Below, in pieces: positions 324 through 62,030 of a DNA stretch of 64,000 bases. Each line of letters starts with the position of its first letter. Positions within the stretch are counted from its first letter, which is position 1. A model generated the notes under the pieces. It ran no database searches, was not told the DNA's origin, and saw only the letters and a list, made by a program, of their open reading frames with translations. The stretch covers positions 79,873,785 to 79,937,784 of the forward strand of contig JALGQZ010000002.1 in assembly GCA_023105745.1 (NCBI GenBank). The letters run 5' to 3'. This DNA comes from Austropuccinia psidii (lineage: Eukaryota > Basidiomycota > Pucciniomycetes > Pucciniales > Sphaerophragmiaceae). Made by a program: the position numbers and the translations under genes.

Positions 324-1311
324 TGTCTTTAATCAAATACTGTGCAGCTGGTAACAGACTCAGTAAAAGATACATCAATAGTCCTGAATCTTCAGAAGCA
401 GAATCTGAAGACAGTATTGAGGTGCAGATTGCTAAAAGAGGCACCTTATTCAACTCAGAAAAAGCTAAATTACCACCAAAAGGTGTGTATTTTATCTTAT
501 ATTTTCACCTTTTATCTTTAAATTGACGTGAAAATGGTGCATACCAGAAATGGAAGCAACTATTCAGTCCAACCAGATGGATGTGGACAAGGAAGAGGCA
601 AGACCAAATCCAGAAGTGCCAAATATTCCACAAGAAAGACACATCTGGAGGATGCCAGAGTTGCCCCCCATTCCCCAAGGTCTGTACCAACAGATTTTGA
701 CGTGAATTCTGAGCCTGAACTGATTTATGGTAATATTTCCAGGGATGAACCACTTTCAGGTGGCAGAAATAGAAATATATCAATGCCAGTACAAAAACTG
801 GTTCAGAGCAGCCAAGGAAGAGGAGTGGGAAATCTGCCTAAGCCTTTGGCAGGGGGCCATGAACTCCTACTTACACATCAAGAGCTTTCTGGGTCAGGAG
901 AAGACCATAGAACTCTTAGGAGGATGGAGCCCCCTGTCTTGCAAAGACAAGGTCAAAAAGATAAAGAATTGGTTGAAGAACCAAAGTCTTTTATCCATAG
1001 ACCAGAAGAAAGAGTTGGAAATGACTCCAGCTTTGGAGACAGAGGCACCAGTGGCATCTACCAGCTCCAAACCAGCTCCAGAAGCATCCAAGGACAAGCC
1101 CAAAGGACCTCAAAAGAAACAGAGAGGTCCCAAGAACCATCAAGGCAAGGGCAAAGGCAAAGCCAATTGGCACAGACCTTACCCACAAGGGTACAGGATC
1201 CCCAAATTGGAACCTTCAGCCGTGGACAGTGTCTTCAATATGGCCAGAACTCTTATGGAATTCACAGCCAAGGAGCAGGAAAGGATGAACAGGACTTTTC
1301 CATGCAAATAA
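324..1311 (+). CDS. Element A ORF1: spliced upstream protein of unknown function (about 286 aa)
   Basis: Predicted exons are 324-482, 548-679 and 743-1311, after an exon outside the window that should supply the A of ATG. Introns 483-547 (65 nt) and 680-742 (63 nt) have GT-AG ends, phase 1, and remove in-frame stops. C has introns of identical length and J has the same positions and phases. The protein carries an acidic, proline-rich middle, a basic Lys/Pro-rich stretch (about residues 195-235) and a C-terminal block with RPYPQGYRIPK and FNMARTLMEF, clearly shared with J, which argues that this frame is translated. It ends at TAA 1309-1311, overlapping the first downstream Gag ATG (1302-1304). 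The function is unknown; it could be a matrix-like or accessory Gag protein. I recall similar proteins from basidiomycete elements but could not check. Confidence 0.7.
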
Positions 1312-4300
1312 CTGATGTACATAGAAGTATTAATGTAGAAATTGGCAAACTTGAGTCAAAGTTAAAGCAAATTACATTAGACATAAATAGTTTAAAGACA
1401 AATGACAAGAAACATTTTGAATGGCATCAGTTGACAACTGTCACCCTTGAGTCAATTGGCAATGCTTGTGAAAGAATTGAGAACCAATGTCAAACTCAGA
1501 ATAATGACACAGAAGATCTTTCCATTTTTAAAGTAAATGATAGACTTAAAACTCTTGAAGACCATGTCTTACAAATAGTTAAGAACACCAATCAATTTGC
1601 TATACATTTAGCAAAAAGTGACAGTGAAAGGCAAAAATTGAAGAATGAGATAATTGCAAGTGTGGAACAAATTCATAAGAATCATGAACCACATATGCCA
1701 AGACATTCTACAACTTTAACTGAAGAGAAACTCTCTGTTAAAGAAAGTCTTACACCATTCTTGGGAGAAAATGCCTACTCTGCAAAAGATATTCCAAAAA
1801 TAGAAGAATGGCCAACATTCTCTGGTGAAGGAGAATACAGCCATATTGAATTCATCAGGACTATTGATATGTTGCAAGCAGACTTTAATATACCTGATGA
1901 AATCATAGTGGGAAAATTACACTGTTTGTTTACCAGAACTGCAATGAAATGGTATTACAAAATGAGGATTGATCATGGTAAACATGACTGGTCTTGGTGG
2001 AAATCTGAAGTGATTACCAAATGGGCCAATAATTCTTGGAGGTTTAAAATGGAGAATGCTTTTGAAAGTGCCATTTTTAACTCAGAAAAAGACAAACCAC
2101 TTACTTGGTTCTTCAAACAAAAAGACAGACTATCTGCTTTACACCCAGATATGTCTGACACTATGATTAATATGAAAATATTAAGAAAGTGTGGAGGAGA
2201 ACTGGAACATTCTATCAAAAGCAGATGTGTGGAAACTTGTTCAACAGAGGACTACATTAATGCTATGGAAGATATCATTACCAGGACAAGAATTGGTAAG
2301 ACTTGGATTAAAAACCCAATAGAGTCCAAAATAGTCTCAAAGGTTCCTAGAGAGGAAAGAAGACCAGAAAGACCTGTCTTGAAGTGTCATAAATGTGGAA
2401 GTACTTCAAATTTAGCCAACACTTGTCCTAAGAAGACAAAAATCAATGAAGTTCAAGTCATTGAAGAAATTCAGTGTACTGAGGAGAAAGAGGAGTCTGA
2501 TCAAGATTCTGCAGTCTCTGAAGATACACCAGTGGAGGACTATCCCATTGAAAACATTTCAGCTTTCTTTGAGGTCACAGAAGTCCATACCCACTTGCCA
2601 CAGTACAGTGAAGATTGCTGCAACCTGATCAATATCCAAGATGCCAGAATGTGTAAAACAAAACCTGCTAGAGGAAAGGGTTATACTGCTGGGGCATCCT
2701 GTATCACATCAGTTCTGATGAGTGATATTGAAGCCAAAGTAAATTTGGATACAGGGGCATTTTGCACTTGTGTGGGCAAAGATTATCTCCAAATTATACT
2801 TCCTGAATGGAAAAACCATCTATTACCAATAGAAGGTGTACAATTCAGTAGTGCCAGTAACAATATGTACCCCCTGGGCATATTGGACACTAATATTGTA
2901 TTCCCACATCCAGCAGGAAGTGTAAGAATGAAGACTGAGATTGTAGTAATGGATAATTGTACATCTCAGCACATCATTCTTGGAAATGATTACTTGAATA
3001 TTTATGGTATAGATATAAATAACCATAAAGACAGATATTTCACAATTGGAGATAACAAAAGGCAAAAATTTGCTTTCTCCAATATGCCAAAACAGATATC
3101 TGTAGTATCTTCTGTCAAAGATACTTACAAAGATGAACTTGTGTCTAAACAACTTGTTGAAGCACAAATTAATCCATCATTGTCACCAAAGATGAGGAAT
3201 GAACTTATTGATGTATTATATACATACAATAATGCATTTGCATCTGATAATGAACCATTAGGCGCTATAAGGGGACATGAAATTGATATTACTCTTAATA
3301 TTGATAGACCATATCCTCCAGTACTTAGAAGACCAGCTTATCCAGCCAGTCCCAGAGCTAGAGAAGCCTTGGAAAAACATATCCAAGAGTTGATCCAACT
3401 TGGTGTGCTAAGGAAAGTAGGCCATAATGAGGAAGTTGAAGTGACAACACCTGTTATTATTGCATGGCATAATGATAAGTCAAGAATGGTTGGAGATTTT
3501 AGAGCTTTGAATACCTACACAGTTCCAGATGGGTATCCGATCCCTAGAATTCAAGAAACCTTGACTCAATTGTCTAAAGCCAAGTATATAACATCAATGG
3601 ATGCATTGAAAGGCTTCCATCAAAATGTTTTGACGCCTAAAGCTAAGAAATTACTTAGAATTATCACTCATTGTGGTATTTTTGAGTATCTTAGAATGCC
3701 ATTTGGCATTAAAAATGCTCCATCTCATTATCAAAGAATGATGAATACCATCTTCCCCACAGAATTGTCTGAAGGATGGCTTATAATTTATATTGATGAT
3801 ATTATTATATGTTCTGACTCATGGTCTTTGAACCTTGAAAGACTTGCAAGAGTACTTCATAAAGTTGCAGAAGTGAACATGAAAATTTCACTTAAGAAAT
3901 GCAATTTTGGTTTTTAAGAACTCAAAGCATTAGGACATGTTGTTTCTGGTTTGAGCTTGGGTATTGACAAGAATAAAGTAGCAGCAGTGTTACTTAAGCC
4001 AATACCCCAGAATAAAAAAGAAATGATGTCTTTTCTTGGATTTTCTAGTTACTATAGGCAACACTTGAAAGATTTTGCAATTCTAGCCAAGTCACTCTAT
4101 AGAATCTGTGATCAACAGACTGTATTTGAAATGACACAGGAAAGAATTAAAGCTTATGAGAAGATAAAGAAAGCCCTTACAGAAGCACCTTTACTCCTCA
4201 TGCCTGACTGGAATATTCCTTTTAAATTGTACATTGATGCATGTGGAGATGGATTAGGGGCAGCCCTACACCAAGTCCAAATTATTGATGACAAACCTAC

Positions 4301-6242
4301 AGAAGGACCAGTGTGTTATATCTCAAGACAAATCAAACCAACAGAAGCCAGATATGGTGCAAGCCAAATGGAGTGCTTATGTTTGGTATGGGCACTTGAG
4401 AAATTACACTATTACCTTGATGGCAGTGTTTTTGAAGTGATAACTGACTGTAATGCTGTAAAATCACTTCTTAACATGAAAACTCCCAACAGACATATGT
4501 TGAGATGGCAAATAGCCATTCAAGAATATAGAGGAAACATGACTATAGTTCATAAAGCAGGAAACATTTATAAAAATGCTGATGGACTTAGTAGATGGGC
4601 TTTAGCCAACACTCCTGATAACCCAGCTTATGTACCTTTGGAAGCTGAACCACAGATTCCAATTGAAGGAATCAACATAACTGATATTGGGACTGAATTC
4701 TTTGAAGAGGTCAGAGAGTCTTATAAACAAGACAAGAATTGCCATATCTTGACTTCTTTATTGGATAAAGACTGCAAAGACACATTTTTGGTTAATGCAC
4801 TAGATGAAGTTTGGAAAAATTCCTATTCTGAAGGAAGATTTCACTTGTTTGATGGGATTATTTACCATAGAACAAAACATTCTTGTGTGATGACACTGTG
4901 TAGTAGATTGCTTATCAATACCATTCTTCATGAATGCCATGATAGCATTTACTCTGGACACCTATCAGAAGACAGAACACTTGAAAAAGTGAAGAACTGT
5001 GCATGGTGGCCATCTTGGAGAAAGGAAACCATTGAATATTGCCATACCTGTGATAGATGCCAAAAAGCAAACAGGAGTACAGGCAAGAAATTTGGATTGA
5101 TGATCCATATTCAAGAACCAAAATCCCCTTGGGAAGTTGTTCACATGGATTGGGTCACAGCACTTCCTCCAAGTGGTGACAAAGGTTATAATGCTTGTTT
5201 AGTCATTGTAGACAGATATAGCAAAACTCCCATATTCTTACCATGTCATAAAGATGACACTGCTATGGATACAGCTCTTCTTCTATGGAGTAGAGTTATT
5301 TCTCATACAGGATTATTTAAGAATATCATAAGTGACAGAGATCCCAAGTTCACATCTGCACTTTGGACCAATCTTCATAGATTGTTTGGGACTAAGTTAT
5401 CATTCTCTACAGCATATCACCCTCAAACAGATGGGCTAGCAGAGAGGATGATTCAGACTTTAGAAGACATGATCAGGAGATTCTGTGCTTATGGATTAGA
5501 ATTCAAAGACTCAGATGGCTTTACCCATGACTGGTGCACTCTGATACCTGCATTAGAATTGGCATACAAGACATCAGTCCATTTTTCCACAGGACAAACT
5601 CCTGCTATGTTAGAGAAAGGATGGAATCCAAGACTCCCAGCAGACACACTGAGGAAAGACTTGATTGACATTCATCCTACAGCTTCCAGCTTCAAATTAA
5701 TGCTTGATAAAGTAAAACACCATGCAAAACAAAGTATGGATGATGCTTTCCATTATGCAAAACAGAAGTGGGACAAGAGTCATAAAGTACCAGACTTCAA
5801 AGTAGGGGACTTAGTTCTAGTTTCAACCTTGAATTTTAATAATATCAAAGGCCCAAAGAAACTTAAAGATTCTTATGTAGGACCTTTTGTTATTGTTGCT
5901 TTACATGGAACCAATGCAGTTCAAGTGGAATTGAGTGGTGAATTAGAAAATAAACACCCCACATTTCCAGTCAGCTTGATAAAACCTTATCAACCAGCTG
6001 ATAAAGAATTGTTTCCTTTAAGAAACCCAACTCCTTTAACTGTACCACCTGTGGAACAGAATGAAGACAAAAAGATAAAGAAAGTCATTAAAGAAAGGAA
6101 ACTTAGGGGTAAAAATCAAAGAGAATATCTTGTCAGATATAGAAATCCAGTACATGAAGATGAATGGATGGCAGAATCAGAAATACCTGACTCAGATAAA
6201 CTCTTAAGAAGATTTAGACATGAAAGAAGGCCACAAGCCTGA
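1302..6242 (+). pseudogene. Element A Gag-Pol polyprotein with a single premature stop
   Basis: Order: coiled-coil-like N-terminus, Gag capsid region (about 1780-2330), zinc knuckle (about 2384-2430), protease with LDTGA (about 2740), reverse transcriptase with YIDD (about 3790), RNase H (about 4230-4600), integrase with HHCC (about 4927-5060) and D-D-E motifs MDWVT, SDRDPKF and DGLAERM, then a chromo-like tail (about 6070-6230). TAA at 3915-3917 replaces a GAA codon kept in C and F, cutting the polyprotein in the RT thumb; the frame then stays open to 6242. The zinc knuckle reads CX2CX4NX4C, with Asn for the usual His kept in C. The frame is also open upstream from 528, overlapping ORF1. The ATG at 1302 is my choice because it meets the ORF1 stop; an N-terminal extension by frameshifting is possible. 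Confidence 0.9.
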
Positions 6243-6382
6243 ATATGTCTATAAATGTGCTTTAAATTACTTGATCTAAGTAATGTGAAGAGGTTGGACA
6301 GTGGACATTAACCGCCTTTGGGGCCTTATTCTTTTATCACTAATAAAATTGTAGTACAATTTTATTTTTTGGTGGGAGGGAA
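6243..6382 (+). promoter_or_regulatory. Element A 3' untranslated end with polypurine tract (6371-6382)
   Basis: The purine run GGTGGGAGGGAA directly precedes the 3' LTR. C has the identical run beside its 3' LTR (46830-46841, inverted). This is the expected primer site for plus-strand DNA synthesis. Confidence 0.85.
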
Positions 6383-7948
6383 TGTGAGCCTTGAGGTATA
6401 TTTTACATACCCAAATAGGCCACAATTATCTTAAAAAGAAATTTTGAATTATGCATAACTCATAAGTCATTCTTATATCCAAAATTCATCATTTTCAATT
6501 TCAGAAAAGATGAACAACTTTTTATTGAGTAAGTAAATCCATGGATTTAAGACCAGATTTGGATTCTACACAAAAATTCACCTAGGGTAGCTCCATAGAG
6601 TGAATAAGCTCAATTTAAGTATTTGAGGTGGTAAAATGGAAAATACTTCAATACCACATCATTAATACCACATAAAAGATCCGTGAAAATTTTTGTTTTT
6701 CTTGATTTTTAGCCAAAATAATGGGAAAGTGAGAAATCCCATGTTACATATACACTAAGAATAGTTTTATGCATGTTTTGAGCACTTAATATCATGGTAT
6801 TCTTACATGGACTTTTGGTACACCCATAGTGGATATCTCACTTTAAGCTTAAATTACTATTTTGACATAAAAATTAGGCAAGGGAGACAAAAGACATCAA
6901 AGAGAGCCAGGGTACCCAACTTCTGAGGCCTCAGAGGCATGGATAGCTCCAGAGCATGGATCCATGGCTCATCTTGGCCCAATTGGTAAACTAAAACTCT
7001 TTGGGAACTTGGTTACCAAGTTACACCTACTGTAATCATAAGAAAAATAGCAAATAACCTGCTATTTTGACGTGCCAAGGAGGTAATGAGCTACTTAGAC
7101 TCCAGTAACCACGTCAATTCTTGATGAATTTCCATGACTAGACCCTAAAAGAGTAATTAAAACCATTTTGGGATCCATATTCATTGATTTACCTCATAGC
7201 AACCAGCAAAATACTGCTATTTGCAATTCTACATAGAAATGAGGTAAAAACTTCAAAAATTCATTAAAAATACAATTCTTAATGAATCTTCCTGAAACCT
7301 TCAGGACCAATGAAGAACTGTATTATCTATGGTAAAACCAAAAAGAATTATGGTTTTACTAGTAAAATTAAAAGTTTTACTTACAGTCCATTTTTGACCA
7401 TTCTACGTGAAACACTGAATCTTCAAAAATTCACAGTAATTACAACCTGTGATGAAATTGGCAATAACATTGATAACTTTTAGAAATCAATGATTATTTT
7501 ATAATAAAAGAAGATTTACAGATGTTACTCCTTTTATTCTTAACCATATTGGGGTTGGTAGTCACGTAAAAGCATCAATTAAGTAATTATGATAATCTTA
7601 CATGACAACAGATGATGCAATCATTAATCCAAAAGGGTTTATTGTTTTCTCACTCACTGGTTTTTCAGTTTGCTCCATGGAACGCCTCTGTGAGCTGTTG
7701 TTGACTTAAAAGAAGCCTCTTCTTGCTGTTTTTTCCAATAATCATCTTATCAATTTATTAAATCATTATTACCAACAAGTAAGTATTAGTTAAAGCTATT
7801 CTTAAGTGTTTTAAATCTTTCAAAATCATCCAGAAAGACGTGAAATCATAGAATCCAACTATATATTGTTGTAATACTGTTATAAATCCTTTTGATCCCT
7901 TAAATCCACAATTCTACGTCAAATTTCTCTACTTTTATCTATCAATAA
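6383..7948 (+). repeat. Element A 3' LTR, left part
   Basis: It starts TGTGAGCCTTGAGG next to the purine tract and matches the complete solo LTR at 62074-63979. It stops where B is inserted and resumes after 17610. ACGT-core motifs recur (near 7068, 7110, 7405, 7565, 7848 and 7915); many are ATGT or ACAT in the older solo copy. Together with 17606-17967 the LTR is about 1.9 kb. Confidence 0.95.
7771..7786 (+). promoter_or_regulatory. Splice donor inside the lineage 1 LTR
   Basis: ACCAACAA followed by GTAAGT (GT at 7779-7780). The same donor is kept in both C LTRs (inverted, 53886-53891 and 45446-45451) and, as GTAAGT, in the 19597 solo LTR; the 62074 solo LTR has lost four bases of it. The preceding A would pair with the TG at the start of exon 2 to build ATG. 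This 3' LTR copy stands in for the 5' LTR, which is off the window. Confidence 0.6.
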
Positions 7949-9386
7949 TGTCAGGCTGAGTCTATGATAAAGGTGTATATGAGTATTTACAAGCTTCAAC
8001 TATGACTGTGACACGGTAAAAATGGTTTTAAAAGATGATAAGATTGATAATAAATGATATAATTTAAGATTTAAAGGGCTTTACTATAAAGATATAGTGG
8101 TGGTGAGCGCTGTTGAAAGCCCTGGGTGCAGCTTTACCTGTTGGATTACAATAATAAAGACTACAATACTTTAAATTAAGAGTATACCTGATTATTTAAC
8201 CAAGAGTAAAACTGTTTTTGACAGTTTACTACGTAGGTTATTCAAGAGCAGGATGAGGAAAGGTTTTTGGCTGTGAAAAGCCCTCCTTTTATCCTGAAAT
8301 TGAGGTGGAAAGGCTGCTAGACCTTTCCACGTAGAGGAAGTGAAGATTTTTCACTCTCCAGGACAGGCTTGTGGTTTGCAAACAGCCTGTATACCCTGTA
8401 TTGGGCTCAGATGTGGTTTTGAAACCACATCTGGGCAGTTTTCACCAATACAGGGTGAAAATTTTCATCTGGGGACCTCACAGCCTGATTCTGACGTGTA
8501 TGATGCGTAGAATGCTGTACAGAAGCTGTATGGGACCCCAGTATTGACTGACATATGAGGTATTGAAGTAAAAACATGCTTCTTCGTCTATTTGACACCT
8601 CATATTCATGGTTATGGGATATTATCCCATGGTAAGGCTGTATCTGACAGCAGGTGGGATTTTGACCTTAAAATGGTCATAACTCTGTCAGTTTTTGAGA
8701 TATCAAGCTCAACGTTGGTTCATTGAATAGCCCTGTATGGGCTCTACACAATGGTACCCAACTTGACATGGTTATCATTAAATATGACAAAGTTATCCCA
8801 CGTACAAGTATTTTTGTACATTGGCGTGGTCTGGTCAAAAGCTGTATTAAGCTTGTTTGGCCAATACCTTCTGTTGTAGTTGAGTTATGAGGAAATGGAT
8901 GGCACCATCAGATAGCCCTGATTGTGCTCTTTCCAAAAAGACCCCACTTTAGGTATCTCACACTAAAACTGTAAAAGTTAGATGAGAGGTGAATGTTTTG
9001 TTCACCCTTATTTGGTCTGAATTTGACCATAACTCAAGTAATACTGGTGCTGGCTCAGTGTGGCTGGTACCATTGGATAGCCCTGGCTTAGAGCTTCATT
9101 TTGAATACCCGTTTGATGGGATTAAGCCTCTTCTTCTATATTTTAGATGAGAGGTGAAAATTAAGGTTTATGCTCAGCAACAACTTTGAGCAAGAATAAC
9201 TTTGTTATTTCTTGTCCTATGGTGATGGGACTTATATTTTCAGGAAGAGGTGAGTTTCCTCTTTCTTTTGATACCTTTCGAGCTAATTTGGCTCAGTTCC
9301 ATGTTTTGGTGGTATTTTGGCTATACCATTGGTTTATGGTATTTTGGCTGTCATGCTTGTGCTCTGGTTTTGAGTCACAGGCTGAC
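7949..9386 (-). repeat. Element B 3' LTR
   Basis: Ends are TGTCAG and CTGACA. It contains a nested inverted repeat: an outer pair ACCCTGTATTGG / CCAATACAGGGT at 8393-8404 and 8445-8456, enclosing a perfect 12+2+12 hairpin at 8408-8433. The structure recurs in the other B LTR (about 16607-16670) and, weaker, in the solo LTR near 59950. Confidence 0.95.
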
Positions 9387-9411
9387 ATACCCTCCCTCTA
9401 AAAAAGGCTCA
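9387..9411 (-). promoter_or_regulatory. Element B polypurine tract
   Basis: On the minus strand a run TAGAGGGAGGGTA lies directly before the 3' LTR, the expected position for plus-strand priming. Confidence 0.75.
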
Positions 9412-12400
9412 TCATTGATGAGACTGTTCAGTCCTCCTAGAGGCTCTGAATCTCCTAAAATGGAGGTTCCCATCTGGTATGGCATCCTCTGCCAACCATT
9501 TGTCTTTGTCAGCTGTCTGGTTCTTGAATCTGACTAGATATTGTCTCTGATCCTTCCCATTGAGTCTGATTTTTCTTTCCCTGATGATTTTACTCACAGG
9601 TCCAGGAGAGTCTTCTACTTCCACTATTTCTGGTGGAGTGATGTTTTTCTTCCTAGAGGGGAATTTATACTCTTCTGTTTGGAAGTATGGTTTGACCAGG
9701 CTTACTGGAAAGACTGGGTGTTTCCTAGAAAACTCCTCAGTGAACTTGACCTCTACTGCATTCTTCCCTATCAACTTAATGATAGTGAAGGGCCCTACAA
9801 GTGAGTCTCTCATTTTCTTGGGTCCTTTGAGATTGTTAAAGTTTAGTGTAGACACTAACACCTGGTCCCCTTCCTTGAAGTCAGGTTCCATATGTGATTT
9901 GTCCCACCTCTGCTTATTATACTCTTTGGCCTCAGCTATGCATTTGGCAGCAGTATCACAGGCTTTCTTCCACATATCATGGAAGTCCTTGGCTGTGGGT
10001 GGATGGTCAGAAGATTTTTCTTCAAGTGATCCACAGGTAAAAGGGGATTCCACCCTTTCTCTACCAGTGCAGGTGTTTTTCCTGTGGTAGAGTGCTGGCT
10101 TGTATTATAAGCCAGTTGGACTGCTGGTAAGAGGGTGACCCAATCATGGGTATATCCCTCATGGTCCTTGTATTCCATGCCATAGGCACAGAACCTCCTG
10201 AGGATGTCCTCCATTGTTTGGATCATCCTCTCAGCTAGGCCATCTGTTTGTGGATGGTAAGCTGTGGAAAAAGCAAGCTTGGTGCCTAGCATGTCAAATA
10301 AATTGGTCCAAAATTCAGATGTGAATTTTGGGTCCCTGTCACTAATTATGATCTTAGGGACTCCACAGGTGGATATGATGTTATTCCAAAATAACAGAGC
10401 AGTGTCCATGGCTGTGTCCTCTTTATGGCATGGTAGACATCTCATGCTCTTGCTGAACCTATCTACTATGATTAGGCAGGCATTGTAGTTTTCTTTGCCT
10501 CCTGGGACAAGTCCTGTGACCCAGTCCATGTTGATGGTTTCCCATGGGTGTTTGGGTTCTTCTATGTGTTGAAGTAACCCATATTTCTTCCCATGTTTTC
10601 TATTTGCCTTTTGGCATCTTTCACAAGTGTTGATGTATTCACTCAACTCTTGCTCCCACTTGGGCCACCAAGCTGTGCTTGCTACCCTCTCTTTAGTCCT
10701 GTCTTCACTCATGTGTCCCATGTAGGGACAGTCATGGCATTCCTGCAGGATTAAAGAGATGTGGTCTCTGTCTATCACTGTGAGTGCACTGGTGTGCTTA
10801 TCTCTGTGATAAATCAGGCCATCTATAAGGAAGAATTTATTGTCCTTATAGGCCCTCAACCAGGGTTCCTCCAGCTGGGTTTCCAGTTCTGGGCTCCTGT
10901 ATTTTCGTTGAAGGAGTTGGAGTAGTATGCTACACTGTTTGTGTTTAGCATATGATTTCAGCACTGCATTGAAAAATTCATTGTGCAATTCTGAGGAACT
11001 TATTCCCAGTATGGGGGTTTCTGTCCCTTCTGAATCAGTGTTTCCACTGTCAAGGGTACCACTCCCTGGTGCCCATTCAGAGAATCTGAAGTTCTTTTTC
11101 CTATTTATTTCGATAAAATGGATAGGAATTTTTGCAGCAACTTCAGGGTCATAAGCTGGATTGCTTTTGACATTGTCCAGTGGCCATCTGCTAAGGCCAT
11201 CTGCATTGGTATGGCTTTTACCTTCCTTGTATATGATGGTCATGTTCCCTCTATACTCCTGGATGGCTATTTGCCATCTCAGCATGTGTCTATTAGTAGT
11301 CTTCATGTTTAGTAAAGACTTCAAGGCTGTGCAGTCTGTGTAGACTTCAAAGACTGCACCCTCCAAATAATAATGGAGTTTTTCTAGAGCCCAGACTAGA
11401 CATAGACATTCTGTCTGGGTGGCCCCATACCTGGCTTCTGAATCTTTCAGCTGCCTAGAGATGTAACATATTACACCTTCTCTTGGTTCACCATCCACAA
11501 TTTGTCTTTGGTGAAGGGCTGCTCCCAAGCCTTGGCTGCATGCTGCATCTATATATAACTTGAATGGTAGTTCAAAGTCAGGCAAGATGAGCACAGGTGC
11601 ATTTGTGAGTTCATATTTGATCCTCTCATATGCATCCCTCCTTTCCTTGGTTATTTCAAAAACTACATCCTTTGAGCATAACCTGTATAAACTACTAGTT
11701 ATGTGAGCAAAGTTTTTGATGTGGTTTCTATAGTAGCTAGCAAATCCAAGGAAAGATTGCATCTCTTTGATGTTCTTTGGTACTGGCTTTTGCAGTACTG
11801 CTGCTACTTTGTTCTGGTCAATTGCCAGACTAAGGCCTGAGACTTTGTGTCCTAGAGCTAGTAGCTCTTGTTGGCCAAAATTACACTTTTTAAGTGAAAT
11901 TTTCAGATTGATGGGTGTACATTTACTTAGCACTCTGTCTATGTATTGTACATGGTCTTCCCATGTCTCTGAGTATATAATGATATCATCAATATATACT
12001 ACCATCCAGCCTTCCATTATTTCTTCCTGAAATATGGTGTCCATCATCCTTTGGAAGTGGGCTGGTGCATTCTTGATGCCAAATGGCATCTTGGTGTACT
12101 CATATATGCCCATATGGCATATAATTCTGAGTAATTTCATGGAGTTTGGTTTAACTCCATTTTGGTGGAAGCCCTTCATACAATCCATCTTGGTTATGTA
12201 TTTGGCTTTGGCCAATTTATCCAAGGCATGAGGTATCCTTGGTATAGGATACCTGTCTGCTTTTGTGTAGTTGTTCAGGGCTCTGAAGTCTCCACACAAT
12301 CTAGACTTGCCATCATGCCAGGTGATCAGGACAGGAGTGGTGATTTCCACTATTTCATTATGTCCAATCTTCCTAATGACATCCATGTCCAGGAGTTCAT

Positions 12401-15218
12401 TGATATGTTTCTCAATCTCTTTCCTGGTCTCCAGACTTGCTGGGTAAGGAGGTCTCCTTAACATGGGTGGATAAGGCCTTTCTACATCCAGATATAGTTC
12501 TATATCATGGCCTTTGATCTTGCCTAATGGTTCTTCACCAATGGCAAATGCTGGTCTATTCTTCCTCAGCATCTTCAGTAAACTTAACTTTTGTTTACTG
12601 GTGAGGGTAGTGCTAAACTGTCCCTCTCTGAATTCTTTCAGAAGTTCTTCCAGTGGGTCCTGAGAAGATATCTGGTATATATCAAGAGAAAATTTCTTTT
12701 CCTTGTTAGTACCAATGGTAATATGCCTATTTTTACTATTGTAAATATCTATTCCATAAATCCTCTGGTAATCTGTTCCCAGTAAAAACCCTTGGATGTG
12801 GGCATTACCTTTTCTGTGGGGTATAATTATCTCTTTGATAATTGTCCCAATAGAGGTCATCTTTCCAGATGCACTCTTAAAGTTCTTTGCCCTGGTGGGC
12901 AAGAGTTCTTTTTCCCAGTTTGGGAAGTGGTTATCCAGATAATTTCTGGCCACTATGGAGCAGTGTGCTCCACTGTCAATGATCAGTGGATGCTGAGCAT
13001 TGTCAATACATACAGTCATTTTTGTGGCTGTTCCATGTATGTATGCCATTCCTTTGGTTGGTGTAACCAGGAATGTTTGTGCATCTTGTGTATGTTTACA
13101 CAAATTCTTGTTGTCAGTGTCTTGTGGCATGCCTGCTTCCAACTGTATATCCTGGATTTCTAGTGGGGTTTCCTCTTGGTATTCCACTAGAAATTCCTCT
13201 CTTGGGTCTTGATCCTCATCAGATGGTTCTCTAATGGCATCACCCATAGAGTCTGATTCAGAATCCTCTGTTGGAGGTTCTTCTTCAGGGACTTTTTCTA
13301 TAGCATAGACTTTCTTCTTTGCTTTTGGACAGTTGTTGGCATAGTGGTCTGTTGAACCACAATTGTGACAAGAATTCTTATTCTTTGCCACTTCTGCCAC
13401 TCTTTCTCTGGGTTTGTCTTTAAACTCCACCCTGAAAGGTTGTTTCTCTTTGAAACTACTGCTTCTATATGGGGTGAATTTCCCTATATTAGTCCTTTTC
13501 CTTATGTCTTGTAAGGTATTGGCTATATCATCTAGAGTGCAATTTTGGTTGCATCTGCACTTTACTGCATGCTCTAGTTCTCCTGGCAGTTGTGTCAGAA
13601 GTTTATGATTCCTCATTTGAATGTTCATTTGGGGATCAATGGCTTTAAGTCTTTTAGACTGTCTAAGACACCACTCATATGGATCTTTGTCCACAGAGTA
13701 TTTGTCATTTTCAAATGACATGGTCTTTTGCCATATCCAAGTTCCATTACTGTACTTTTGGATTATTTGACTCTTCCACCATGGCCAATTTCTTCTGCCA
13801 TGGATTTCTTTCATTTCAGTGTACCATATATTTGCATGACCTTTAAATGCAGTATTCAGTCTAGCAGTAATCCAGTAATCTGGTATGCTTGGTACATCAA
13901 TGAAGAGTCCATCAATATAATCTATGAGTTCCATATGATCATATTCTCCTGATCCAGAGAATTTGGGCCAGTTTGAGGCCTCAGGAAGCTGTTTCAAGGC
14001 TTCCTTCTCTGAATAAGACATGCCATCTCCATCCTGGTATTGTGATGGAGATCTTGCCTTATTCAACAACATGGCATCTGGTTTGATGTCATCTGGTTGA
14101 TATGGATTCTTCATAGCTTGGCCTTGTGGTTGGGGCTTTAAGCTATGGTAGGCATCAAACAATTTGTTGATGTCTTGGTTCAGACACTCCCTGTCCCTGC
14201 TACTATGGTGTTGTTCTTCAGAGACTTGATTCAGTCTCTTGTTGGTTTCTTCAGAGGCTTTGTTCAGTTGAGCATATCCTTCCTGAAGGTTTTTAACTAT
14301 CTGCTCCAATGAGGCTTGAGTTTTTCTCATCCTCTCTTGGGCAGCTGCAAATTCTGTAGCCTGCTTTGCAGATTGCTCATCATATTGGGACATTTGTAAC
14401 CACAGTGTGTCACTGTTGATGTTACTCTCAGATGTGATAATGTTATTTTCAGTCTGAGTGGGGGTAATGTTTCTATTACTAGGACTACTGATTCTAGAGT
14501 GGTTTACAACTACTTCTGGTTCTTGTGTACTTCTTTTACCAAATCTAACAGCTTCTGGATCATGGGGTCTGACTCTTTCCTCCTCTGGTTGAAGGAGGCT
14601 TTGTTCTTGCCCTTGTTGCCTTGTCTTCTCCTGGAAACTTCCTGGAATTGTGAAGAATGGTGACTCTTGGCCACTGATCTGCTGGTTTCTGAATGGTGTG
14701 AAGCCACTGGAGAGCTGATTTGGCATGCTCCTTGTGAACCTGAAGGAATCTGAGTAGGCCCTGTCTGGGTTAACTGTTCTTCTATAGCTTGGATAGTGGC
14801 TTGATTCTCCCTTATCCTCTGTGCCCTTGCCTCCAGGAGTCTGTGCTGCCTGGTAGGATTCCAACCCTTGGTGATTACCATAAGGTCTTTGAACTCTATC
14901 TCTTTGAGACAGATCTTCTGGCAACTTGATCCCAGTTCTTCCCAGTGAGTTGCTAGGTTGAACCTCTTGTTGTCCATGCTCCATTGAAACAAATCTTTGA
15001 GGAGTTGGTGGATTTGAAGAACTTAATCCATATACTTCCAGTCCTCTGGTTTGAGGTTTCTGTTGAACTGGAGTGTGAATGGCAAGTTTGATATTATCTC
15101 CCTCATTGTTTTGCCATCCACCACTGTGTCCAATGTGTCTTCTGGTTCTAGACATTCCTGCTCTATCCTCTGGCTGGTTCCTTTGGAAGCCAAGGTCTCT
15201 GAGGTATGCAGGGGACAT
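9412..15218 (-). pseudogene. Element B Gag-Pol polyprotein with one frameshift
   Basis: One frame runs unbroken for about 1,750 codons. It holds a Gag capsid region, a canonical zinc knuckle [14 protein letters not shown] (about 13370-13330), protease IDSGA (about 12985), reverse transcriptase YIDD (about 11995), RNase H, and integrase with HHCC and D-D-E (MDWVT, SDRDPKF, DGLAERM). A single-base indel near 10000 then shifts the integrase C-terminus into the frame that ends at 9412 with a chromo-like tail. Alignment with A places the shift just after an IHP motif. The first ATG in this frame is at 15216-15218, but the region to 14510 overlaps ORF1. The first Met after the ORF1 stop is at 14391-14393, so the true start is undecided. 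This is one of the two best-preserved elements here. Confidence 0.92.
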
Positions 15219-16116
15219 ATCAGTGTTTGCAAGCAGTCGAAAACTTTATGTTCTTAGGGTATTTAACTTTGACTGTGCCTTGTACAAATTTGTTATCTGC
15301 TGATTTGGGCAGTTTGCCTTTGGAGGTTACAACTGGGTTAATAATTGTAATCTTCCCTGTACAAGTGGTTAAGGTTGGTTTACCTTGTATTGAAGCAGAG
15401 TTTCGTGGTTTTCTACTCCTCTGAGTGGCTATTGGTGTCCACTTCTTGGCTGTAATGAGGCCTTCACTAAGCCTTTTTCCTTTACCCTTGCTGCCCTCTG
15501 GTTCTGAGGGTGTCACTGGTGTGTTGGCCTGTGACTGGGTTTCAAGTGGGATGTAGTTTTCTTCCACTGAATCAAAACAGGAAAAAGAGGGCTTATGTCA
15601 GTTAAGACTTCTTAAAAGGCTGGTTTTGCACGTCTAAGAATGGCCTCTGGGCTTGTATATTATTACAATATTCCCTTGTATAATGACAGTGTAATTGAAT
15701 TAACAATTTCACGTCAAAAATACAGCTTATGGTGCCCTGTCACACTGTTTGTGTGCCAGTATCCCACAGATACACTTGTGGTTTTCAAGTGTATTCTGTA
15801 CAAGTGGTTTTGTATAAGTGTTATTGAGTCAACAATACACTTAATCCACGCCTCAACTGATGGTTTTTCAGTCAGAGGTGTCCTTATTCAGTCAAGAATA
15901 CAGGACTTATTAATGGCTGATGTGTTTTTATATACAAAACACGCCAAAAAATAATTATTTTCAGTGGGTATTAGCCACGTGAAAACACCTCTTTTATAAT
16001 ATGAGTATATAAAAAAAGGATAAAAATATATAAAATATATATATTTAAATGGAAATTACGCGTAAAAAAGATAAAACAATGTGTTAATAAGTCATAAAAA
16101 AGAGAAAAGACTTACT
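14510..16116 (-). pseudogene. Element B ORF1: spliced upstream protein, start codon split by intron 1
   Basis: The predicted start is A at 16116 joined to TG at 15566-15565, giving ATGGAAGAA. The next exon stays open to 15220 (about 115 codons; basic, Ser/Pro-rich). A second stretch, 15190-14510, in another frame, follows an acceptor-like TACCTCAG, reaches a helical segment and ends in Lys/Gln-rich sequence at TAG 14510-14512; one TAA (15023-15025) interrupts it. GWNPT in B may correspond to GWSPL in ORF1 of A. I could not find the donor joining the two stretches in the phase seen in A and J, so the middle of the model is open. Function unknown. Confidence 0.5.
15567..16115 (-). other. Element B predicted intron 1 (549 nt)
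   Basis: Donor CAA/GTAAGT has its GT at 16115-16114; the acceptor is TTTTGATTCAG ending at 15567. The donor lies about 30 nt past the primer binding site, so splicing would leave the binding site in exon 1 and remove the AT-rich leader. The joined exons create an ATG absent from unspliced RNA. Confidence 0.65.
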
Positions 16117-16146
16117 TGTAAGGTCCAAAAAAGTTAAAAAAAACAC

Positions 16147-16159
16147 GGCCAGGCCCCCA
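16147..16159 (-). promoter_or_regulatory. Element B primer binding site
   Basis: On the minus strand TGGGGGCCTGGCC begins 3 nt after the 5' LTR. C carries close variants at the same place (TGGGGACCTGGCC and TGGGGGCCTGGCG). A leading TGG fits pairing with a tRNA CCA end; I cannot name the tRNA. Confidence 0.7.
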
Positions 16160-16162
16160 AAA

Positions 16163-17605
16163 TGTCAGGCTGAGTCTATGATAAAGGTGTATATGAGTAT
16201 TTACAAGCTTCAACTATGACTGTGACACGGTAAAAATGGTTTTAAAAGATGATAAGATTGATAATAAATGATATAATTTAAGATTTAAAGGGCTTTACTA
16301 TAAAGATATAGTGGTGGTGAGCACAGGCTGTTGAAAGCCCTGGGTGCAGCTTTACCTGTTGGATTACAATAATAAAGAGTACAATACTTTAAATTAAGAG
16401 TATACCTGATTATTTAACCAAGAGTAAAACTTTTTTTGACAGTTTACTACGTAGGTTATTCAAGAGCAGGATGAGGAAAGGTTTTTGGCTGTGAAAAGCC
16501 CTCCTTTTATCCTGAAATTGAGGTGGAAAGGCTGCTAGACCTTTCCACGTAGAGGAAGTGAAGATTTTTCACTCTCCAGGACAGGCTTGTGGTTTGCAAA
16601 CAGCCTGTATACCCTGTATTGGGCTCAGATGTGGTTTTGAAACCACATCTGGGCAGTTTTCACCAATACAGGGTGAAAATTTTCATCTGGGGACCTCACA
16701 GCCTGATTCTGACGTGTATGATGCGTAGAATGCTGTACAGAAGCTGTATGGGACCCCAGTATTGACTGACATATGAGGTATTGAAGTAAAAACATGCTTC
16801 TTTGTCTATTTGACACCTCATATTCATGGTTATGGGATATTATCCCATGGTAAGGCTGTATCTGACAGCAGGTGGGATTTTGACCTTAAAATGGTCATAA
16901 CTCTTTCAGTTTTTGAGATATCAAGCTCAACGTTGGTTCATTGAATAGCCCTGTATGAGCCCTACACAATGGTACCCAGTTTGACATGGTTATCATTAAA
17001 TATGACAAAGTTATCCCATGTACAAGTATTTTTGTACATTGGCGTGGTCTGGTCAAAAGCTGTATTAAGCTTGTTTGGCCAATAACTTCTGTTGTAGTTG
17101 AGTTATGAGGAAATGGATGGCACCATCAGATAGCCCTGATTGTTCTCTTTCCAAAAAGACCCCACTTTAGGTATCTCACACTAAAACTGTAAAAGTTAGA
17201 TGAGAGGTGAATGTTTTGTTCACCCTTATTTGGTCTGAATTTGACCATAACTCAAGTAATACTGGTGCTGGCTCATTTTGGCTGGTACCATTGGATAGCC
17301 CTGGCTTAGAGCTTCATTTTGAATACCCATTTGATGGGGTTAAGCCTCTCCTTCTAGATTTTAGATGAGAGGTGAAAATTAAGGTTTATGCTCAGCAATA
17401 ACTTTGAGCAGGAATAACTTTGTTATTTCTTGTCCTATGGTGATGGGACTTATATTTTCAGGAAGAGGTGAGTTTCCTCTTTCTTTTGATACCTTTTGAG
17501 CCAATTTGGCTCAGCTCCATGTTTTGGTGGTATTTTGGCTATACCATTGGTTTATGGTATTTTGGCTGTCATGCTTGTGCTCTGGTTTTGAGTCACAGGC
17601 TGACA
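16163..17605 (-). repeat. Element B 5' LTR
   Basis: Matches 7949-9386 with about 25 substitutions and a small indel near 16322. Several differences are CpG against TpG or CpA, for example near 8584, 8799 and 9109 of the other copy. Confidence 0.95.
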
Positions 17606-25840: not shown

Positions 25841-26641
25841 GTACCCCCCTACCTTGAATGGTGAGCTCCTGAGCACCAAGGTAAGGTAGAGGCCTGTTGA
25901 GGCTAATTAGATGGATTTGACGTAAGGATTCCAGAGGTATTGAATCTTGACAAGAAGAATTGAACTGATAAGCTTGTTGGCATATGAATTGAGGTTGACT
26001 TGATCTTCTCTTGACATTTGGCTTTGACAAAGTTGAAGACATGATTTTACATAAAGATTTTGGCGTTAAAGAGTTATAAGAAAAGAAATTTTAAAAGAAT
26101 ATAAAGAGTAAAAGAGAAAAGGAAACAGATATAAAGAGAGAAACAGAAAAAATAAAAAAAATGAAATTTGAGGAGGAATCCAATCTTCATCACGGATTAC
26201 GACAATTGATTTTGAAAGTGACCAAGGACCTGGATAAAGGAATTTGATGCCAGGTGCTCACAGAGTGGCCAAGGTGATGTTTTGACAGATTGTAGACCCC
26301 TCAGGGAAGTGCACACCAGGAGAGGAACTTACTTTTAGTAGTTGCCACTCCCGCCAGTGCCATAAATAAGAAAGATCTTGATAAATGAATGTGTTGAAAG
26401 AATAAAGTCTTGGGAGGGAGAATAAAAAAGGAATGGTCCATTTGCCCAAGTGTAAATGGCCATAAATTTGGAATTCGGATGTTGAAAGCCGGGCCAAGAA
26501 GTCTGTGTCCAAATTGAAAAGTGCTCACAGAGTGGCCAAGGTGATGCTTACAACAAAGAAGAGTAGAATACCCCTAAAGGTGCATACCAGGAGTGGGACT
26601 TACTTTTGGTAATTCCTCTGCCCACCAAGCACCATAAAAAT
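25841..26641 (-). promoter_or_regulatory. Element E 3' untranslated region with two repeat modules and polypurine tract
   Basis: Two related ~110-bp modules lie at about 26522-26636 and 26254-26366. Each holds AAAGTAAGT and a conserved CTCCTGG...TGCA stretch. D has two similar modules in the same place. The purine run AGGTAGGGGGG (about 25844-25854, inverted) beside the LTR is the polypurine tract. The part between about 26050 and 26200 is simple A-rich sequence. Confidence 0.75.
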
Positions 26642-51914: not shown

Positions 51915-52877
51915 GGAAAGGTCCTGTTCATCCTTTCCTGCTCCTTGGCTGTGAATTCCATGAGAGTTCTGGCCATATTGAATACATTGTCCATGGCTGA
52001 AGGCTCCAATTTGGGGATCCTGTACCCTTGTGGGTAAGGTCTGTGCCAATTGGCTTTGCCTTTGCCCTTGCCTTGATGGTTCTTGGGACCTCTCTGCTTC
52101 TTCTGAGGTCCTTTGGGCTTGTCTTTGGACACCTCTGGAGCTGGTTTGGAGCTGGTAGACGCCACTGGGGCCTCTGTCTCCAAAGCTGGAGTCATTTCAA
52201 GTTCCTTCTTCTGGTCTATGGATAAAAGACTTTGGTTCTTCAACCAATTCTTTATCTTTTTGACCTTGTCTTTGCAAGACAGGGGGCTCCATCCTCCTAA
52301 CAGCTCTATGATCTTCTCCTGACCCAGAAAGCTCTTGATGTGTAAGTAGGAGTTCATGGCCCCCTGCCAAAGGCTTGGGCATATTTCCCACTCCTCTTCT
52401 TTGGCTTCTCTGAACCAATTTTTGTACTGGCATTGATATATTTCTATTGCTACCACTTGAAAATGGTTCAGACCTGGAAATATGGTCATGAATCAGTTCA
52501 GGCTCAGAATTAACATCAAAATCTGTTGGTACAGACCTTGGGGAATGGGGGGCAACTCTGGCATCCTCCAAATGTGTCTTTCTTGTGGAAGACTTGGCAA
52601 TCCTGGATTTGGTCTTGCCTCTTCCTTGTCCACATCCATCTGGTTGGACTGAATAGTTGCTTCCATTTCTGGTATGCACCATTTTCATGTCAATTTAAAG
52701 ATAAAAGGTGAAAATATAAGATAAAATACACACCTTTTGGTGGTAATTTAGCTTTTTCTGAGTTAAATAAGGTGCCTCTTTTAGCAATTTTCACCTCAAT
52801 ACTGTCTTCAGATTCTGGACTAGTGATATATCTTTTACTGAGTCTGTTGCCAGCTGCACAGTATTTGATTAAAGAAA
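51905..52877 (-). pseudogene. Element C ORF1, start codon lost
   Basis: Exons 52877-52734, 52668-52537 and 52473-51905 mirror A. The introns are again 65 and 63 nt, with the same GTGTGT and GTCTGT donors and the same ACCAG and TTTCCAG acceptors. The whole spliced frame is open and about 90% identical to A by eye, including RPYPQGYRIPK and FNMARTLMEF. The exon 2 start reads TT instead of TG, so splicing to an exon ending in A would give ATT, not ATG. The function is unknown. Confidence 0.65.
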
Positions 52878-53365: not shown

Positions 53366-55268
53366 TGAAAGATGTGACTATGAAGCTGATGATAATATTA
53401 CTATTAATCAACAGTACTATGTCTGTTCTTATGTAATATAATAATAAAATATTATTATAACCACAATTAAATCATGAAAAATCATTTCTTTCATGTGTTA
53501 AGCACTACTAGTGATTTTAACAGTGAGCAAGTAATTGTCTACAAGAATAAATTACAAGAAGATTTTAATAATAAAAACTTCTTTTATTAAAATAATAAAA
53601 TTATTTTAATATATAATTATCTTTTGCAAGAATATGTATAATGGTAATTCTTGAAGAAAACTAATTTTAGAGAAAAACTTTAAGAATTAAAAATAAATCA
53701 CTCACTAATATTCCAAAGAACTTATTGAAAGATAAGGTAGAGAGATTTGATGTAGAATTGTGGATTTAAGGATCAAAATGGATTTAAAACAGTATTACAA
53801 CAATATATAGTTGGATTCTATGATTTCACGTCTTTCTGGTTGATTCTGAAAGCTTTAAAACACTTAAGAATAGCTGTAACTAATACTTACTTGTTGGTAA
53901 TAATGGTTTAAATGATAATAAGATGATGATTTGGAAAAAACAGCAAGAGGAGGCCTGTTTTAAGTCAACAACAGCTCACAGAGGCGTGCCATGGAGCAAA
54001 CTGAAAAACCAGTGAGTGAGAGAACAATAAACCTTTTTGTATTATTGATTGCATCATCTGTTGTCACGTAAGATTATCATAATTACTTAATTGATGCTTT
54101 TACGTGACTACCAACCCCAATATGGTTAAGAATAAAAGGAGTAACATCTGTAAATCTTCTTTTATTCCCAAATAATCATTGATTTCTCAAAGTTATCAAT
54201 GTTATTGCCAACTTCATCACAGAATGTAATTACTGTGAATTTTTGAAGATTCAGTGTTTCATGTAGAATGGTCAAAAGGGGACTGTAAGTTAAACTTTTA
54301 ATTTTACTAGTAAAAATGTAATTATTTTTGGTTGTACCATAGATATTAATGTTCTCCATTAGTACTGAAAGTTTCAGAAAGATTCATTAAGAATTGTATT
54401 TTTAATGAATTCTTGAAGGTTTTACCTCATTTCTACGTAGAATTGCAAATATCAGTGTTTCACTGGTTGCTATGAGGTAAATCAATGGATACAAGTCCAA
54501 AAAGGGTTTTAATTACTCTCTTGGGGTTTATCCATGGAAAGTCATTAAGAATTGACGTGGTTACACTAGTCTAAGTAGCTCTTTACCTCCTTGGCACGTC
54601 AAAATAGCAGGTTATTTGCTATTTTCTTAAGATTTACAGTAGTTGTGACATGGTAACCAAGTTCCCAAAAGGTTCTAGTTTACCAATTAGGCCAAGATCA
54701 GCCATGGATCCAGGTTTTGGAGCTGTCCACGCCTCTGAGGCCTCAGAAGTTGGGTACCCTGGCTCTCTTTGATGTCTTTTGTCCCCCTTGCCTATTTTTC
54801 ACGTCAAAATAGTAATTTAAGCTTAGAGATATCCACTATGGGTGTACCAAAAGTCCATGTAAGAATACCATGATATTAAGTGCTCAAAACATGCATAACA
54901 CTATTCTTAGTGTATATGTAACATGGGATTTCTCACTTTCCCATTATTTCGGCGTGAAATTAAGAAAACCAAAAATTTTCACGGATCTTTTATGTGGTAT
55001 TGAAGTATTTTCCATTTTACCACCTCAAAGAGTTAATTCGAGCATATTCACTCTATGGAGCTACCCTAGGTGAATTTTAGTGTAAAATCCAAATCTGGCC
55101 TTAAATTCATGGATTTACTTACTCAATAAAAGGTTATTCATCTTTTCTGAAATCAAAAATGATGAAATTTGGATATATGCATGACTTATGAGTTATGCAT
55201 AATCAAAAATTTATTTTTAAGATAATTGTGGCCTATTTGGGTATGTAAAATGTACCTTAAGGCTCACA
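53366..55268 (-). repeat. Element C 5' LTR
   Basis: Starts TGAAAGATGTG (one change from TGTAAG) and ends GGCTCACA. The GTAAGT donor is at 53890-53885 on the element strand, with A at 53891 before it. Confidence 0.93.
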
Positions 55269-60428: not shown

Positions 60429-61805
60429 GAATGACATATGGTCATATTCACCTTCACCTGTGAATTTTGGCTATTCTTTTAAGTAAGGTGCTCCTTCATT
60501 AATAATTGGTTATGTGCTTGATCACTGAAATCTATCATGAATGGATTTGTTATTTCCTCTTGTGTCTTAACAGGACTTCTTATGTGAGACAATGGGGTTG
60601 ATAGCCTTGGAATATTTAAGTTAGCCTCATTTATTTTATCCATTTTTTCAGTAAGAAGTCTTATTTCACTCTAAATGTCATCCTTAAGATTCATTATTGC
60701 TTCATCACTCTTTTCTACATGATCTAGAAGTAATTTTTAATGTGATGAAGTTGTTTCTTCAAATTTCTCATCAGAGATACTCAATTTGTTTAAGTTTTCT
60801 GTTCAATTGTCAAGGATCACATCATAATTGATTGTTAAAGTTTTTTCTTTAATATCTTTTATGTATTTATACAGCTCTTGTTGTCCTTGTATTAATTTTT
60901 GAGTATTGTCAATTAAAATTTTTGGTTTATTATTTTCAACCATAAATTTAATGTTATCAATTTCTTTTTTTATTTTATACAAAAATTTTGGTTGAAGATG
61001 ATAAGCTGTTATTTATTTCTTGTAAGGATGATAGACTATTTTTAATGTCTTATAGAGGTAAGATACTATTTCTAATTTCAGTTAAAATATCTACAAAATC
61101 AGGAGACAAAGTTATTTCTCTGAGAAATGAGGTTGTCTCATTCTTTGTTCCTCTTTGTCCTTGAAATCCATAAAGGTTGTTGCCATGTTTAAAAAATTGT
61201 TCATGGAATATTTTTGGATTTTTGGTATCCTGTAACTTGGGGAATAGGGTTTCCTCCAATTCTTTTTCTTGCTCTTCTTCCCTTCTTGGGGAAGTTGGTT
61301 GCCTTGGGGCTTGCTGGTAGAAGCTACTGGGGCTTCTTCCTTGCTTTCCTCTTTCCTTTTGGTATTGTATTCCTTTATCTTCTTGATTTGAGGCTTGGAT
61401 GGTAGTGGATTCCATCCATTTGAGTATCTCACTATTTCCTCCTCTTTGAGGAATTTTTTGAGGATATGCCAGGAGTTCATCACTTCTTGGTGGATTTGTG
61501 GCAAAAAATTTCAATCTTCGTCCTTTCACACCATGTAATAATGCTTGTACTGGCTCATATAAATTTCTATTTGAGCCCTCTAAATGTGATTTGTCCCTGT
61601 TGGAGTTCCTCATACTCAGTTCCAATTATGGTTCAGAAATCATGGGTATATCTGGGACTTGCCTGTTGGATATGGCACTTCCTTGTGTGGATTCTGTTCC
61701 ACTGGGGATTTGGCCATTTCTTTTCCCTTTTGAGGGATCAACTCTACTTCTAAGTCCACCTCCATCTGATTTTATGGAGTATTGGAATCCTCTTTTAGTA
61801 GTCAT
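60429..61805 (-). pseudogene. Element J: Gag N-terminal region in the -1 frame, decayed
   Basis: It aligns with gag of A and C but is much more divergent. 60429-61049 holds the coiled-coil-like region with several stops. 61050-61625 is open for 191 codons and overlaps ORF1 exon 4. Upstream, ATG 61805-61803 (MTTKRGFQYS) aligns with the first codons of the A frame at 534, and a TAA near 61630 separates the parts. Because ORF1 is better conserved between A and J, the overlap may not all be translated as Gag. Confidence 0.6.
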
Positions 61806-62030
61806 AGTAAATATTTAAGAAAACAAAAGATTTCAGAACACAAAAAAATCTTTCATGGAAAACAAAAAGGAGATACTCACCTTGAGGGTCCTGAATAGTG
61901 AGTCCTGGAAAGAATAATTTCTCAGATTTCTTTGTCTTATTGACAATTGGTTTTGGAGAACTTGGACAAGTTTCTTCCACCAATCTTGCAACAGTGGTTT
62001 GATTATCCTCTGCTGGGTTGTCTGCAAACA
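61112..62030 (-). pseudogene. Element J ORF1, divergent homologue with conserved introns
   Basis: Exon 2 starts 62030 after CTGTCTTTTTAG, with TG first, as in A and B. It ends at 61881 with a strong donor GTGAGTATC, phase 1. Intron 61880-61792 is 89 nt. Exon 3 is 61791-61663. The next intron, 61662-61597 (66 nt), begins GCAAGT, a GC donor or a mutated GT. Exon 4 is 61596-61112. NQMEVD, GWNPLPSKPQIKKIK, EAPVASTS, YRIPKIQ and FLNMATTFMDF match ORF1 of A in this frame. Stops in exon 3 (CCA TAA) and early exon 4 (ATT TAG) show that it is dead. Its value is as an outgroup showing that intron positions and protein sequence were kept. Confidence 0.7.

Follow-up and report, generated by a model that had tools for sequence, protein, structure and literature searches.

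The window, a 64,000-nucleotide (nt) stretch of contig JALGQZ010000002.1 from Austropuccinia psidii, is a nest of Ty3/gypsy-type long terminal repeat (LTR) retrotransposons, and this analysis concerns a start codon that some of these elements would assemble by splicing, together with the second protein, X, that it would open. We refer to elements A and C as lineage 1, to B as lineage 2 and to J as lineage 3. A domain search placed reverse transcriptase (RT), RNase H and integrase in gypsy order in A and B, and paired LTRs were found in A, B and C, as in Ty3/gypsy elements (Metaviridae). A primer-binding-site (PBS)-like sequence, TGGGGGCCTGG, lies directly 3' of the LTRs in B and C. A also carries a Tf2-1-like SH3 domain; a Chromo match after the integrase occurs in A only and, at 19.5 bits, is under its cut-off of 25.1. 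The 3' LTR of A is 98.34% identical to its 5' LTR, which is outside the window. In C, the LTR pair is 92.7% identical and the Gag frame contains stops. Further copies were sought in the A. psidii assembly (1.015 Gb, 84 contigs); the published A. psidii genome is just over 1 Gb (PMC8063080).

The proposed split start codon and protein X

An earlier note had described AG/TG acceptors (the slash marks the splice site) at 324 in A, 15566 in B and 62030 in J, and all of these coordinates were confirmed. The acceptor of A reads ...CTCTTTAAG/TGTCTTTAATC, with the exon starting at base 324 of the forward strand; on the reverse strand, that of B reads ...TTGATTCAG/TGGAAGAA, with the exon starting at base 15566, and that of J reads ...CTTTTTAG/TGTTTGCAG at 62030. 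The donor of B, CCTTACAA/GTAAGT, ends its exon with an A at 16116 and is the sole GTAAGT in the 800 nt that precede the TG, in keeping with the note, which had seen no other strong donor there. The A-ending lineage-1 LTR donor, ACCAACAA/GTAAGT, was likewise found in both LTRs of C and in the 3' and 5' LTRs of A; the donor for A itself sits in its own 5' LTR, beyond the window edge. The other donors of X end, in their main forms, in G (AAAG/GTGTGT, CAAG/GTCTGT, AAAG/GTAAAT and CAAG/GTGAGT), so the final A occurs at the very place where a start codon requires one.

The note had further taken A/TG as the start of ORF1. We rejected A/TG as the start of Gag-Pol, whose separate ATG lies at 534 in A, 15218 in B and 61805 in J. 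Read from the DNA, the frame opened by A/TG is a predicted second protein, X, overprinted on Gag. Joining A/TG and removing two introns with canonical ends in silico gives an X of 286 codons in A, ending at 1311. The features of the three elements on which this reading rests are as follows.

324..482, forward strand: X exon 2 of A; TG at 324-325 supplies the last two bases of the start codon; donor AAAG/GTGTGT after 482
483..547, forward strand: X intron 1 of A, 65 nt; contains the Gag ATG; acceptor CATACCAG
534..536, forward strand: Gag-Pol start codon of A, the first ATG past the LTR donor in unspliced RNA
548..679, forward strand: X exon 3 of A, overprinted on Gag
680..742, forward strand: X intron 2 of A, GTCTGT...TTTCCAG (63 nt); free of stops in the Gag frame
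743..1311, forward strand: X exon 4 of A, overprinted on Gag; stop codon TAA at 1309-1311
16116..16163, reverse strand: end of exon 1 of B, from the PBS region to the donor; last exon base A at 16116
15567..16115, reverse strand: intron 0 of B, 549 nt, with one ATG
15267..15566, reverse strand: X exon 2 of B; TG at 15566-15565
15199..15266, reverse strand: X intron 1 of B; contains the Gag ATG; lacks a GT donor in B (GT kept in 28 of 30 lineage-2 loci)
15216..15218, reverse strand: Gag-Pol start codon of B
14510..15198, reverse strand: X exon 3 of B, overprinted on Gag; one premature stop in B
61881..62030, reverse strand: X exon 2 of J; TG at 62030-62029; donor CAAG/GTGAGT
61803..61805, reverse strand: Gag start codon of J, within the next candidate intron; exon 3 from 61791

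In all three elements, the Gag ATG thus falls inside the candidate intron 1 of X and begins 14 to 20 nt ahead of the acceptor. No ATG occurs from the TG to the Gag ATG in either A or B, and past the junction the frame reaches its first Met at codon 55 in A and at codon 136 in L040, the sole lineage-2 copy examined for this. The note's claim that the start codon exists only after splicing stands as the best reading in the two lineages with a complete anatomy; in the third, J, it is possible.

In B, no stop interrupts the frame in the eleven codons that precede the acceptor, and exon 2 might begin at a non-AUG codon on unspliced RNA, with no need of a split AUG. We consider this very improbable: it leaves unexplained the A-ending donors in both lineages and the acceptors exactly at the TG, and exons 3 and 4 would not be reached in the X frame by unspliced RNA.

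Pfam and PDB searches with X returned nothing convincing. A structure model had four helices at low confidence (predicted local distance difference test score, pLDDT, 47). The C-terminal part of the X of A is rich in K, G and P, a composition that could suit RNA binding.

The junction and the X frame across genome copies

For lineage 1, 25 copies were scored from 12,487 first-look candidates; for lineage 2, 40 of 2,467 matches were scored and 30 loci were cut out, B (L029) among them. The J-type sample has 40 rows, namely J and 39 copies that are 86-89% identical to it. All 25 lineage-1 copies had AG/TG and an LTR donor with a final A, with variation in the letters preceding the donor (CAA, CAAA, CATA). 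AG/TG was also present in all 30 lineage-2 loci; a GTAAGT lay 532-550 nt upstream in 28 of them, each time preceded by A (28/28), and L046 and L048 had no GTAAGT within 800 nt. Among the J-type rows, AG/TG was kept in 31 of 40, TG in 35, the GT and AG of intron 1 in 40 and 37, respectively, and the Gag ATG in 32.

Spliced in silico, X is full length in 23 of the 25 lineage-1 copies (286 codons in 22, 281 in one); L016, which has a full-length X frame, lacks the AG of the intron-1 acceptor. Lineage 2 gives an X of 333 codons in 26 of 30 loci, the other four, B included, being broken.

As the note had reported, C has TT at the place of the TG. We rejected this as a disproof of the pattern: C is an older copy that has decayed (92.7% identical LTRs, stops in Gag, five ATGs in intron 0), and the change from TG to TT fits such decay.

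52876..52877, reverse strand: TT in C in place of the TG of A

A further 39 lineage-2 matches are 96-99% identical to B, many of them spanning 12 nt more than B does, and this high identity suggests recent activity.

Constraint on the X frame

Comparing A with C, changes in exon 4 fell 3, 7 and 22 times on the first, second and third X codon positions (22 of 32 on the third, p=4.5e-5); by the geometry of this overlap, third positions of X are first positions of Gag. Exon 2 had 1, 1 and 5 changes plus a 15-nt insertion or deletion, a frame-keeping length difference seen in C and L014, and exon 3 had 2, 2 and 1. The two elements diverge by 11.7% over the leader and by 4.9% over exon 2. Across the 25 lineage-1 copies, diversity by codon position was.014/.022/.059 for exon 2 and.015/.014/.039 for exon 4, and that of exon 3 (.027/.021/.031) had no clear pattern. 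Within the exon 4 stretch, stops interrupted the X frame in 1 of 25 copies and the Gag frame in 6 of 25, and the third frame contained 9-11 in every copy.

Between A and J, 66 of 153 positions were identical in the X frame (z 53.7) versus 49 of 147 in the Gag frame of the same DNA (z 16.9). Neither frame was clearly similar between A and B.

Intron 2 had a diversity of.015/.042/.085 in the Gag frame (p=0.075 by site counts). It therefore looks coding in that frame, and RNA that retains intron 2 also seems to be read.

A leader depleted of AUG

The leader, counted from a point 100 nt ahead of the donor up to the Gag ATG, is free of ATG over 1,223 nt in A versus 15.8 expected, and that of B has one in 1,297 nt versus 16.4 expected. 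In neither element was the count matched by any of 1,000 dinucleotide shuffles. Among trinucleotides with at least 8 expected, none is as strongly depleted in the A leader as ATG, the next being GAT at 0.41 of expectation. Intron 0 of the 25 lineage-1 copies has 0-3 ATGs versus 8.0-12.7 expected. The interval from the TG to the Gag ATG has none in 19 copies and one in 4; in 2 of 25, the Gag ATG was not recognised by the search pattern. The LTR stretch 110-590 nt before the donor holds 6-12 ATGs in 24 of 25 copies and none in L023, which has other sequence there. Intron 0 of C has 5 ATGs versus 14.1 expected, and the J leader has 5 in 504 nt. This scarcity would put the Gag AUG at or near the first AUG of unspliced RNA, provided that the transcription start is no more than about 100 nt away from the lineage-1 donor.

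Positions 1-600 of L023, which precede a lineage-1 donor of the ordinary kind, differ from the other copies and are free of ATG; it looks as though a different element had supplied this 5' LTR.

That all of this is decayed repeat DNA, patterned by the shared ancestry of the copies, strikes us as barely credible. The copies are related, and frames are broken in C, J and B; against this, diverged lineages have kept X better than Gag, ATG is depleted in the A leader more than any other trinucleotide and the donor positions differ between the two lineages.

A probable splicing toggle between Gag-Pol and X

We consider it likely that splicing toggles between Gag-Pol and the overprinted X in these Ty3/gypsy-type elements. 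Unspliced RNA, which carries the putative PBS, would serve both as template and as Gag-Pol mRNA, and a scanning ribosome would meet the Gag-Pol AUG first, given a leader of about 1.2 kb that is nearly free of AUG. Removal of intron 0, from the A-ending donor to the AG/TG acceptor, would build an AUG in the context ACAAUG, and an A at -3 is favourable for starting. With its donor in the LTR in lineage 1 and just past the PBS in lineage 2, this step would discard the PBS in the former and not in the latter. Removal of intron 1 would then take out the Gag AUG and link the frame to the part of X that lies on the N-terminal part of Gag.

The note had suggested that the split start bars genomic RNA from translating its first open reading frame. 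This is not supported, as Gag-Pol would come from unspliced RNA. An unsplit X AUG would precede Gag on genomic RNA, and splitting it avoids this; more likely, the arrangement serves to spare the genomic RNA any AUG ahead of Gag and thereby allows Gag to be translated from it.

A related route would remove intron 0 and keep intron 1, giving a short X followed by Gag through termination and reinitiation. X read through intron 1 meets a stop that adjoins the Gag ATG in all three lineages (524-526 versus 534 in A; offsets from the TG of 344 and 348 in L040, and of 233 and 225 in J), and this proximity would permit reinitiation as an additional route to Gag. In unspliced RNA, however, the leader is nearly free of AUG and the Gag AUG already comes first, and we regard reinitiation as rather unlikely, although it could coexist with the toggle.

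As for what X does, we favour, with low confidence, a regulator of the element's own RNA, by analogy with CERV of the retrotransposon Cer1. A broader version, in which at least two and probably three diverged lineages share the full toggle, with an RNA that makes either protein, and in which X is a Rev- or CERV-like protein in a feedback circuit on the level of unspliced RNA, is a tentative proposal that we think less likely to be right than wrong.

If the toggle is real, it would explain in a simple way how a gene can sit ahead of Gag in an LTR retrotransposon while Gag is still translated from genomic RNA. It would also add an overprinted, spliced gene to a superfamily that forms much of this gigabase fungal genome (PMC8063080).

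Public gene models

A search with the lineage-1 X started from 864 candidates and recovered 524 proteins at E<=1e-3; the best 120 of the 524 were tallied, all of them named as A. psidii (MF-1) predictions, and 6 of these 120 have no Met at the start. Searching with residues 1-56 of the X of A gave 4 proteins among 7 candidates, 3 of which begin exactly at codon 2. P0053, P0070, P0074 and P0121 all have the exon 2-exon 3 junction as in A. For lineage 2, a search with residues 1-61 found 188 proteins, of which 120 were listed: 19 begin at codon 2, 99 carry V, L or M before it, one carries W, and P0234 begins further in and is not anchored. V, L or M is what would be expected there if the genomic letters were NTG; V or L at that place is accordingly consistent with NTG in the DNA and is no proof of it. 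Such genes can be truncated by gene finders, which calls for caution.

Points against the toggle

Several observations weigh against this interpretation. At least 76 of the 120 listed lineage-1 models (O181) begin at the in-frame ATG 550 in exon 3, and a few begin at the Gag ATG and enter X through another junction. The upstream exons of the lineage-2 models vary, so these models look ab initio. X could be real and begin at the ordinary ATG of exon 3 (550 in A), with an untranslated exon 2 and a chance AG/TG. We hold this to be unlikely. Exon 2 has an excess of third-position changes and the frame-keeping 15-nt difference in C and L014, and in L040 the first in-frame Met is as late as codon 136, yet the residues that precede it recur in the listed lineage-2 models.

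For the toggle itself, the anatomy is incomplete in J: no A-ending GTAAGT, GTGAGT or GTATGT was found in its leader and LTR, and no A-ending donor occurred in the 400-nt stretch examined in 20 related copies. No consensus branch point precedes the first acceptor of A or either acceptor of J. The proposed introns of 530-1,020 nt are long by fungal standards. Transcription must start after the last ATG before the donor, a premise of the toggle, and in lineage 1 this ATG precedes the donor by about 100 nt in most copies and by 38-41 nt in two.

The support from copies and from codon positions also has its limits. By segregating-site counts, the third-position excess was modest in exon 2 (p=0.043) and exon 4 (p=0.011), and such counts gave no support for constraint in exon 3. 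Lineage-2 X has no recognisable similarity to lineage-1 X (z about 3). Aligning genomic copies for constraint, as the note had proposed, found the TG, and the A of every donor located, invariant in lineages 1 and 2. The copies are young, most of them sharing 97-98% identity with the query, and the lack of variation at the four junction bases is therefore weak evidence in itself; with 205 of 888 intron-0 sites segregating in lineage 1, four invariant sites would arise by chance with a probability of about 0.35. In the J-type family, the TG had a majority fraction of 0.938 versus about 0.90-0.95 for its surroundings. Being no better kept than these, it supports an ancestral pattern and not constraint, as expected for older copies decaying without selection. 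We therefore rejected AG/TG invariance among young copies as proof, the copies being too alike and the J-type TG decaying like its neighbours. The DNA shows the anatomy, the open X frames, the constraint on X and the AUG depletion; from these we infer that the splices occur, that ribosomes scan the leader and what X does.

Relation to known systems

The elements resemble Ty3/gypsy elements of the chromovirus type in their LTRs, PBS-like sequence, RT-RNase H-integrase order and, in A, the Tf2-1-like SH3 domain; to our knowledge, a spliced X gene with a split AUG is not usual in such elements. In human T-lymphotropic virus, splicing gives access to the regulatory frames of Rex and Tax, as it would for X. 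These frames differ from X in lying near env and the 3' end and in having ordinary AUGs.

Cer1, an LTR retrotransposon of C. elegans, makes an accessory protein from a spliced multi-exon RNA that overlaps gag and has one exon in another frame, and GAG and POL from unspliced RNA (PMC10309623). This protein, CERV, is required for the export of unspliced Cer1 RNA (PMC10309623). Like CERV, X as spliced in silico is a multi-exon frame that overlaps gag, partly in another frame; unlike X, CERV shares peptides with GAG, and the initiator ATG predicted for it follows an acceptor (PMC10309623). In X, the AUG itself would be split and the Gag AUG spliced out; the likeness of X to CERV described here is one of layout.

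EBNA-LP of Epstein-Barr virus has an AUG generated by splicing (PMC12451641). The AUG of X would similarly be absent from the genomic sequence and form at an exon junction (A/TG in the DNA). EBNA-LP comes from a herpesvirus latency transcript and no retroelement, with neither overprinting of Gag nor an AUG-free genomic leader involved. In the titles and abstract openings returned by our searches of open-access papers, we found no split AUG in an LTR retrotransposon and no protein X. A splice-made AUG (EBNA-LP) and a spliced accessory protein (Cer1) are thus each known; their combination in LTR retrotransposons appears to be new, pending proof from RNA.

Other features of the window

The remaining rows of the elements discussed are as follows.

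534..6242, forward strand: Gag-Pol frame of A, with one in-frame TAA at 3915-3917
6383..7947, forward strand: 3' LTR of A, into which B has inserted; exon end at 7778, with the donor ACCAACAA/GTAAGT
9936..15218, reverse strand: Gag-Pol frame of B, open down to 9936
53366..55268, reverse strand: 5' LTR of C; donor ACCAACAA/GTAAGT, last exon base 53891

A scan of viral contigs with the pol of A gave no match, and a bacterial promoter scan was uninformative, the method being meant for bacteria and not for this organism. At 24130-34150 lies another LTR family, with end repeats that are 96.7% identical and a Gag-like frame on the reverse strand; no A/TG exon was noticed in its translated 5' end, where no systematic search for one was made. 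The Gag-Pol frame of A is broken by its TAA despite an LTR identity of 98.3% and an open X frame. In C, two PBS-like stretches, TTTGGGGGCCTGG and TTTGGGGACCTGG, follow the 5' LTR about 110 nt apart (53240-53370, reverse strand), as if the leader had been partly duplicated. The J leader contains a solo lineage-1 LTR (62074-63979) that has GTTAT at both flanks, resembling a target-site repeat.

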